Shown in pieces: positions 39,787-57,836 of a stretch of 64,000 bases of DNA. The notes beneath the pieces are model-generated. The model was not told where the DNA came from, made no database searches, and worked only from the letters and a program-made list of their open reading frames with translations. The stretch comes from Alphaproteobacteria bacterium. GTDB lineage: Bacteria > Pseudomonadota > Alphaproteobacteria > UBA7985 > JAUIBT01. The translations under genes and the position numbers were made by a program. The stretch's first letter is position 1; the number at the start of each line of letters is the position of its first letter. The stretch spans positions 1 through 64,000 of the forward strand of contig JAUIBT010000017.1 of assembly GCA_030428255.1 (NCBI GenBank), given 5' to 3'.

Positions 39787-40110
39787 CTAGGCGAGTGAGG
39801 CTTTGGCTTGCTGTTCGCACTCCAGCAATTTGGCTTCCAAGTCCTGGTGGCTATATTCCAAATTGGCGGCCTGCAAGTCGGCATCGACCTTGCGCAGCAC
39901 ATCTTCATAGCCTTCTTCAGCAAAATCCGCTTTGATGACTTCCGTCGCATAGGCTTCTGCGTCGGCCTCAGATTTGTTCATGACACTTGCCGCCCACAGG
40001 CCGAAGAGCTTGTTGCGGCGCGCCTCGACCTTAAACACCATGTCTTGGTCGTGGATGTACTTGGCTTCAAAGGCGTCGATGCGATCTTGTAGGACCTTGT
40101 CCGAGGTCAT
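39787..40110 (-). CDS. ATPase inhibitor subunit zeta (DUF1476)
   Basis: 107 residues. The opening 'LQDRIDAFEAKYIHDQDMVF' and 'RRNKLFGLWAASVMNKS' are the hallmark of the alphaproteobacterial zeta subunit, which inhibits F1-ATPase through its N-terminal helix. 'LRKVDADLQAANLEYSHQD' follows in the helical bundle. ATG 40110 matches the family start; the longer in-frame extension to 40266 is not credible. Confidence 0.95.
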   Translation of the reverse strand: MTSDKVLQDRIDAFEAKYIHDQDMVFKVEARRNKLFGLWAASVMNKSEADAEAYATEVIKADFAEEGYEDVLRKVDADLQAANLEYSHQDLEAKLLECEQQAKASLA

Positions 40111-40427
40111 ATCTCTTGTCTCCTGTCGAGGAATGGCTGTTAATCTTATGTGGCAAGAAAAACAGCCGCATGCAAGATGGCCAATGCGCCGCTGCGGGGA
40201 ATGCTGGATTTTGCCGGTGCTGGTGTTCGCTTTCGAACGCTGACAGAGCCGTTCCCGTGCTGGCACAAGCCGGACTGTGCAGCCTTGCGCACCAGTGCGA
40301 ACTTGGCTGGCCTATCGTGCGATCCCTTGACCACGCCAGGCGGCACGCCGGGTTGCCGGTGTTCACCGAACTTGGGTCGGCACAGCGCCCAAGCGCCAAG
40401 CCTGAGCTTAAGCACTGAAGTTTTGGC

Positions 40428-40505
40428 AAAAAAAAGGACGGCTCGTCGAGCCGTCCAAGTCTAGGGAGGAAACAGAAGATGAGAGAGCGATGTCGCTCAT
40501 CAACT
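40428..40505 (-). ncRNA. Candidate small RNA 3' portion: hairpin, CU-rich anti-SD loop, terminator
   Basis: Read on the minus strand, a short hairpin (GAGCG / CGCTC, 40485-40498) is followed by an unpaired TTTCCTCCCTAG (40461-40472). Then comes a perfect 9-bp stem GGACGGCTC / GAGCCGTCC (40436-40456) and eight T residues (40428-40435). CCUCCC in a single-stranded loop can pair with Shine-Dalgarno sequences, as in the CcsR-type sRNAs of Rhodobacter. No minus-strand gene upstream explains this terminator. The 5' end is unknown. On the plus strand GGGAGGA precedes a 38-codon frame (40479-40595), a competing explanation for the CU-rich motif but not for the terminator. Confidence 0.45.
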
Positions 40506-40628
40506 GAGATCAATGTAGGCCGCTTTGCCCCAACGCACAATCCCCGCACCCATGCGAATTCTGCAAGCCTGATGTGCCACCGACTCAACGACTGATGCAT
40601 ATGGGTCACAGGCAAGCGAAAAATTACA

Positions 40629-40741: not shown

Positions 40742-41911
40742 ATGCCCGTGCTCAACCGAACCGCTGACCTGCAACAAACGCTTGAGGCCTGGCGTCACGA
40801 TTTCCACCAACACCCCGAACTTGGCAACGAAGAGCACCGGACCGCTGGCCTGGTGGCCGAGCGTCTGGAAGCCATGGGAATCGAGGCGGTACGCGGTGTC
40901 GGAGGCACAGGAGTGGTTGGGATCATCAAAGGCAAGGGCCCAGATAGCGGCCAAGCCATCGGGCTGCGCGCGGATATGGACGCGCTGCCGATCACAGAGA
41001 ACAGCGGCCTGCCCTTTAGCTCTCAAAACCCGGGCGTCATGCACGCCTGTGGCCACGATGGGCATACCACTATGCTGCTGGGTGCGGCCCAGATCTTGGC
41101 CGAAACGCGCAATTTCTCTGGTCACGTCTACCTGATCTTTCAACCCGCCGAAGAAGGTGGCGGCGGCGCTGAGAAAATGGTGAAAGACAAGCTGTTCCAA
41201 CGCTTCCCCATGCAGGCGGTGTTTGGTCTGCACAACGAACCGGGTTTGGCAGTTGGCCGTATGTCCCTGTGCCAGGGGGCAGCTATGGCCTCAGCCGACA
41301 CCTTTACCATGACCATCAGTGGGCGCGGCGGCCACGCTGCTCTGCCGCACTTGGCCAATGATCCCGTGGTGATTGCTGCTCAGTTCATTGTCGCGGTGCA
41401 AGGACTGGTGAGCCGTGGTACCGATGCTCAGCAATCGGCGGTGATCTCGATCTGCCAGTTTGAAGCCGGGCATGCCGCCAACGTCATTCCCCACCAGGTC
41501 CAGCTTGGCGGCACCATCCGCACCTTGGATGCCTCCGTGCGCAAGCAAACCGTGGACGCCTTTACTCGCTTGGCCGAAGGCTTGGTGCAAGGCTATGGTG
41601 CCAGCGTCGAGATCAATTGGACCGACAGCTCCTGTCCTGTCACCTACAACGATCCCCGCCATCACGATGTCAGCGTGCGCGCGGCTGAGGCCGTGGTCGG
41701 TGCCGAACACCTGAACGACAAGGCCGCCCCTATGATGGCCTCGGAGGACTTCGCTGTCATGCTGGACGAGGTGCCCGGCAGCTACATCTTTATGGGCAAT
41801 GGCGACGGCGCAGGCGTCCACGAGCCCGAATATCAGTTTTGTGATGAAGCGATGCCAGTTGGCGTGTCCTATTTCGTCAAGCTGGTCGAAGAGGCCCTGC
41901 CCGCCACCTAA
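40742..41911 (+). CDS. M20 family amidohydrolase (hippurate hydrolase / IAA-amino acid hydrolase-like)
   Basis: 389 residues. M20D metal-dependent amidase: the metal residues are in 'GLRADMDALPITENSGLPFS', 'MHACGHDGHTTMLLGAAQIL' and 'IFQPAEEGGGGAEKMV'. The dimerisation domain contains 'GRGGHAALPHLANDPVVIAA', and the last metal His region is 'GNGDGAGVHEPEYQFCDEA'. It cleaves N-acyl or N-aroyl amino acids. AAGGAGG sits 8 bases before ATG 40742, a very strong ribosome site. No regulator or transporter is directly adjacent. Confidence 0.93.
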   Translation: MPVLNRTADLQQTLEAWRHDFHQHPELGNEEHRTAGLVAERLEAMGIEAVRGVGGTGVVGIIKGKGPDSGQAIGLRADMDALPITENSGLPFSSQNPGVMHACGHDGHTTMLLGAAQILAETRNFSGHVYLIFQPAEEGGGGAEKMVKDKLFQRFPMQAVFGLHNEPGLAVGRMSLCQGAAMASADTFTMTISGRGGHAALPHLANDPVVIAAQFIVAVQGLVSRGTDAQQSAVISICQFEAGHAANVIPHQVQLGGTIRTLDASVRKQTVDAFTRLAEGLVQGYGASVEINWTDSSCPVTYNDPRHHDVSVRAAEAVVGAEHLNDKAAPMMASEDFAVMLDEVPGSYIFMGNGDGAGVHEPEYQFCDEAMPVGVSYFVKLVEEALPAT

Positions 41912-57488: not shown

Positions 57489-57699
57489 AGCTTGGCAGCT
57501 TTGCCACCCACAAAATATGGAAAAACAGTGATTTAGACCGATTTTGTGAATTCAACCTTAAGTATAACATTGACCGCACCCCTAGAGCTTGCTACTTACA
57601 GTCGTGTCGAAACGGCAATCCCCAGTGACCCTTTAGTCCCCTACTTCAGGTCTCACATGCCGCCTCTTCGATTCTTTGTTCATTTGAAATCCCCCACTC

Positions 57700-57729
57700 G
57701 GGTGCTGCTTTTGCAGCACCCTTTTTTTT
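57700..57729 (+). terminator. Strong terminator of an unassigned plus-strand transcript
   Basis: GGGTGCTGC (57700-57708), a TTTT loop, GCAGCACCC (57713-57721) and eight T. It lies about 110 bp before ridA, with no plus-strand gene before it. Either it ends a small RNA, or it attenuates transcription into ridA. Confidence 0.85.
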
Positions 57730-57836
57730 GCCTTGTGGCTCCAGACCCGGCTGCAAGCGGGTTCAAGTTATGCTTCCCCCTGGCCGCGGGCCTGGTTAGA
57801 CAGAAAGTCATAACCACAGCATCTAGGGAGTTAGGC

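Follow-up and report, generated by a model that had tools for sequence, protein, structure and literature searches.

Small RNAs of the αR8 family, which also goes by the names MmgR, SuhB and SisA and is described by Rfam family RF00519, occur in many alphaproteobacteria: of 289 alphaproteobacterial genomes, 170 have RF00519 matches, frequently more than one. The published signature of the family is the 10-mer UUUCCUCCCU, and single αR8 copies usually adjoin the gene of an N-formylglutamate amidohydrolase (FGase) (PMC12559287). Paralogues do not usually show this linkage, which is no defining property of the RNA. In Caulobacter, SisA works in an Hfq-dependent network, base-pairs with the leaders of transporter mRNAs, and pairs through the 10-mer with the leader of a TonB-receptor mRNA, as proven by compensatory mutations (PMC12559287). 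MmgR of Sinorhizobium is Hfq-dependent and limits polyhydroxybutyrate storage (reviewed in PMC7143759).

The window, as the whole 64,000-nucleotide stretch of DNA analyzed here is called, contains on its minus strand an element that reads AGUUGAUGAGCGACAUCGCUCUCUCAUCUUCUGUUUCCUCCCUAGACUUGGACGGCUCGACGAGCCGUCCUUUUUUUU from 40505 to 40428. The hairpin, CU-rich unpaired stretch, 9-bp hairpin, and run of eight U residues that an earlier note on this DNA described are all present there (Table 1). The best explanation of the element is a free-standing αR8 small RNA (sRNA), which would be transcribed leftward from approximately position 40505 to the terminator at 40428 and is inferred to repress target mRNAs in trans. 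We assign this reading a probability of about 0.93, and the feature is real and most likely functional. The predicted fold of 40505-40428 has a free energy of -27.5 kcal/mol and a z-score of -4.27, a stability unmatched by any shuffle. The z-score is -5.04 for 40507-40428, and those of the two congeners, G003 and G004, are each -4.1 or lower. The 10-mer at 40472-40463 is predicted to be unpaired with a probability of 0.95-1.0. Perfect stems of at least 9 bp followed by at least six T occur twice in the window, in the sRNA terminator and at 57700-57721 on the plus strand. The terminator at 40428 is an orphan, as the earlier note had stated, because the M20-family amidohydrolase gene is divergent and there is no minus-strand gene upstream.

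Table 1. Positions of the predicted sRNA, its parts, and the surrounding features in the window.
Feature	Position	Strand	Remarks
ATPase inhibitor subunit zeta (DUF1476)	39787..40110	-	PF07345, E 7.9e-34; conserved downstream neighbour
Predicted αR8/MmgR-type sRNA	40428..40505	-	About 78 nt; matched by RF00519 and model R1; same place in G003 and G004
Intrinsic terminator	40428..40456	-	Perfect 9-bp stem with 3-nt loop, GGACGGCUC-GAC-GAGCCGUCC (40456-40436), then U8 (40435-40428)
αR8 signature 10-mer UUUCCUCCCU	40463..40472	-	Predicted anti-Shine-Dalgarno pairing region
5' hairpin GAUGAG/CUCAUC	40478..40501	-	6 bp, GAUGAG 40501-40496 with CUCAUC 40483-40478; stem identical in three genomes, loop variable
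38-codon frame, judged not a gene	40479..40595	+	Open in three genomes; variation resembles that of non-coding DNA
-10-like hexamer TACATT	40512..40517	-	7 nt before the RNA start; read from the sequence and alignment A1
-35-like hexamer TTGTGC	40535..40540	-	17-nt spacer, equal spacing in three genomes
M20-family amidohydrolase	40742..41911	+	PF01546, E 5.7e-48; conserved divergent neighbour; the amidohydrolase of the earlier note

When the whole window was scanned with Rfam, a single family matched, RF00519 (suhB/MmgR, αR8), at 40421-40484 of the minus strand with a score of 42.5 bits and an E-value of 2.2e-5, 1.5 bits above the curated cut-off of 41 bits. In the alignment, GUUUCCUCCCUAGACUU is identical letter for letter and the terminator is in place, whereas the first hairpin of the model (GCCC/GGGC) is absent from the window RNA and its positions align as deletions. 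Because the score exceeds the cut-off by a small margin, an independent model, R1, was built from alignment A3, which contains 25 of the non-redundant αR8 copies from other alphaproteobacterial families, with the genus of the window left out. R1 assigns the window RNA 42.4 bits and an E-value of 8.6e-12 (filters off). Since the independent model finds the window RNA, and its second-best place in the window reaches only 15.1 bits, the sequence-based assignment to the αR8 family is secure. The sequence TTTCCTCCC is present in all 30 of the top 30 RF00519 matches from other alphaproteobacterial families. The score above the cut-off is accompanied by the other attributes of an αR8 RNA: a single-stranded UUUCCUCCCU, a weak upstream hairpin, and a downstream Rho-independent terminator. 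The αR8 match and the accessible 10-mer lend good support to the proposal of the earlier note that the minus strand encodes an sRNA with a CU-rich anti-Shine-Dalgarno sequence.

The window RNA has in common with αR8/MmgR RNAs (the Sinorhizobium MmgR is 77 nt long) its size, its orphan intergenic gene, and the succession of the 10-mer, two purines, and ACUU with the terminator right behind. The identical 10-mer below a weak hairpin is also a property of the αR8 siblings SisA-D of Caulobacter. However, the hairpin GAUGAG/CUCAUC of the window RNA is positioned 5 nt before the core, whereas the GCCC/GGGC hairpin of the family adjoins the core. Caulobacter has the four siblings and the sponge RNA CrfA, whereas a whole-genome RF00519 search found the window copy as the only one above the cut-off in its genome, in which a CrfA-like sponge is at most a candidate. 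The surroundings of the gene also differ from those of the family, as the window RNA lies beside the ATPase-zeta and M20 genes. An FGase neighbour of αR8 was confirmed at L021, L022, and G007. The three FGase genes of the window genome are located on contigs C23, C37, and C10, and none is on the window contig, C44; the neighbouring M20-type amidohydrolase is unrelated to FGase. The window copy therefore sits at a non-FGase locus. Judged by its sequence, it is an αR8 copy at a different place and with a 5' hairpin of different sequence. An Rfam scan of the locus of the best-scoring FGase, on C23, gave no RF00519 match. A canonical FGase-linked αR8 copy elsewhere in the window genome was considered and rejected: none lies at the C23 locus, and the whole-genome search returned the window copy only.

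The conservation of the locus was assessed in a three-way alignment (A1) of the window genome and the genus members G003 and G004, both of which keep the RNA and the promoter-like boxes between the ATPase-inhibitor-zeta and M20 amidohydrolase genes. Invariant columns account for a fraction of 0.78 in the region of the 5' hairpin, 0.88 in that of the 10-mer and spacer, and 0.77 in the terminator. This fraction is 0.70 in the promoter block (40569-40506) and 0.51 in 40639-40570, and in the flanks it is 0.24 in the M20 leader and 0.15 downstream. The GAUGAG/CUCAUC stem is unchanged and the loop is different in each of the three genomes, and all three RNAs fold alike. The earlier note had suggested searching related genomes for the block and scoring its covariation: the block is kept in both congeners, and the αR8 terminator helix covaries strongly in A3, with double changes in five of eight pairs, 96% of cells paired, and a whole-structure covariation score of 0.334, compared with 0.116 for shuffled alignments. 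Within the genus, the terminator pairs vary on one side only.

The window RNA has its own promoter-like sequence, which is conserved in the genus. Both congeners have TATCTT at the -10-like position, and the -35-like hexamer is TTGTGC or TTGTAC across the genus. A scan with the sigma-70 consensus called no promoter here, the -10-like hexamer being below the threshold. A sigma-54 promoter was rejected: the upstream TGGCAC and TTGC are wrongly spaced and are absent from the congeners.

Two other classes of sRNA resemble the window RNA. The Rhodobacter sRNA SorY (RF02651), which limits malate uptake, has the same succession of a hairpin, a CCUCCCU-containing linker, GACUU, a terminator, and a U run; its model aligns with the window RNA over the full length, including the 5' hairpin, and both RNAs are seemingly directly transcribed and possess the CCUCCCU core. 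Nevertheless, the alignment reaches 31 bits, below the cut-off of 111 bits, it places several non-standard pairs in the SorY 5' stem, and RF00519 provides the better fit, which makes a SorY-type sRNA improbable here. The SorY and αR8 families may be relatives. The earlier note had likened the element to CcsR-type RNAs of Rhodobacter, which by its account expose a CU-rich anti-Shine-Dalgarno-type stretch, and such an unpaired stretch does lie between the two hairpins of the window RNA. However, the four homologous RNAs CcsR1-4 share a transcript with ccaF1, behind which they form an array, and are processed from its 3' UTR (PMC8307010). The window RNA is single at its locus, has no upstream minus-strand gene, and has a promoter-like block of its own. 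Moreover, no CcsR family scored even at an E-value of 1. It is thus very improbable that the element is a processed 3'-UTR RNA acting through a CU-rich loop, and the likeness to CcsR gives way to αR8.

It is possible to regard the element as a terminator only, which closes spurious antisense transcription or insulates the zeta gene, and the intrinsic terminator is indeed strong. However, the terminator is no better conserved than the 10-mer, the 5' hairpin stem, and the promoter-like block, and the αR8 models match the unit as a whole, so that this explanation has hardly any likelihood. The remaining alternative is that the conserved sequence is a plus-strand gene for a small protein of 38 codons and the minus-strand pattern is incidental. 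The frame, which the earlier note had pointed out as a possible one, exists: its ATG, stop codon, and reading frame are kept in all three genomes, and GGAGG is positioned 9 nt ahead of the ATG. Its standing as a gene did not hold, as the frame varies like non-coding DNA. In two comparisons among the three genomes, the differences at the first, second, and third codon positions number 12/8/12 and 13/9/13, without third-position bias, and synonymous codon changes are outnumbered by non-synonymous ones (4 versus 17 and 3 versus 20). Codon-like variation over 40479-40595, which the earlier note would have taken as evidence against the sRNA, was looked for and not seen. The apparent Shine-Dalgarno sequence of the frame, AGGGAGGAAA, is the complement of the 10-mer, and the ATG sits in the 5' hairpin stem of the RNA; both signals are thus within conserved RNA elements, and this overlap explains their conservation. 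The αR8 terminator and the 10-mer account for the conservation opposite the frame, and a small protein gene is most unlikely.

If the free-standing αR8 sRNA functions like SisA and MmgR, it would bind Hfq, which is encoded in the window genome, through its terminal U run, and UUUCCUCCCU would pair in trans with G/A-rich ribosome-binding sites. The pairing would lower the translation and stability of target mRNAs, the most likely of which encode nutrient-uptake proteins. By this analogy, the window RNA probably blocks the translation of nutrient-uptake genes. The 9-mer GGGAGGAAA occurs 12 times in the window genome, compared with ten occurrences of a control pattern, and the count alone is uninformative. 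In the window genome, candidate GGGAGGAAA sites immediately precede the starts of rpsH and of the genes for a LysE-type exporter, an ABC permease, and a binding protein of the OpuAC type; in the congeners, such sites immediately precede TRAP or ABC transport proteins. As raw counts, 7 of the 12 long frames that begin just behind GGGAGGAAA sites in the three genomes resemble uptake or export proteins (ABC, TRAP, and LysE). The only gene that keeps its site in two genomes (the window genome and G003) is rpsH. Because these are raw counts and GGGAGGAAA is itself a good Shine-Dalgarno sequence, the sites are hypotheses for αR8 targets.

A second GGGAGGAAAC is present in the window genome only in the ffh-dapF intergenic region, where it is kept in G003 and G004. 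The element around it (L063 ~1690-1880; G000:C48, between dapF and ffh), which has the same place in L088 and L094, carries UGUUUCCUCCCU (UGUUUCCUCCC in G003), which the predicted fold of G000 places in the loop of a hairpin. On the ffh-sense strand there is a bulged stem resembling a terminator, with a T6 tail, and the opposite strand is perfectly antisense to the αR8 core over 12 nt (over 11 nt in G003). Because the T6 tail, the terminator-like stem, and the looped UGUUUCCUCCCU are on the ffh-sense strand, a putative second anti-Shine-Dalgarno sibling RNA is tentatively favoured over a CrfA-like sponge. There is a small chance that the genus runs an anti-Shine-Dalgarno RNA circuit formed by αR8 and the ffh-dapF partner (UGUUUCCUCCC(U)). 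In such a circuit, the partner would serve either as a second sibling or, through its antisense strand, as a CrfA-like sponge, which would then exist outside Caulobacter too.

Several other small-RNA-like elements were observed. Directly upstream of ffh (L063 ~1890-2035), three genomes conserve a promoter-like TTGACC-17-TAGACA together with a long GC-rich stem that has T6 behind it; these may belong to a further small RNA or a leader. An unannotated sRNA-like element of approximately 125 nt at 57560-57731 on the plus strand of the window has a promoter-like TTGACC-17-TACTTA and ends in a terminator formed by a perfect 9-bp stem and U8; both congeners match it with 90-91% identity over 170 nt. 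It gave no Rfam match above the cut-off and no full-length match in 190 other alphaproteobacterial genomes, one 28-nt match being to its terminator. A genus-wide 3'-UTR-like element at L065 ~1430-1560 (G000:C10:123291) and L009/L010 ~1440-1572 contains small hairpins and a terminator as well as UUCAUUUGAUCCCCAAACUU. It has UUCAUUUGA..UCCCC in common with the element at 57679, and these are the sole two such loci per genome in the three genomes; the copies from the congeners have a weak likeness to RF00519 of 31 bits. Genome G002, which is of the same taxonomic order, contains three tandem αR8-like matches on the minus strand of L008 (668-743, 885-956, and 1155-1230), which R1 scores at 20-23 bits.

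The kind of RNA encoded in the window has already been described; what is new is an αR8 copy in an uncultured alphaproteobacterial genus with an altered hairpin and locus. The correction of the label from CcsR to αR8 places the RNA in a family with experimentally proven pairing, from which direct target predictions follow. The extension of the αR8 family to this genus, at a non-FGase locus and with a replaced 5' hairpin, suggests that selection keeps the 10-mer and the terminator rather than the sequence of the hairpin or the locus.
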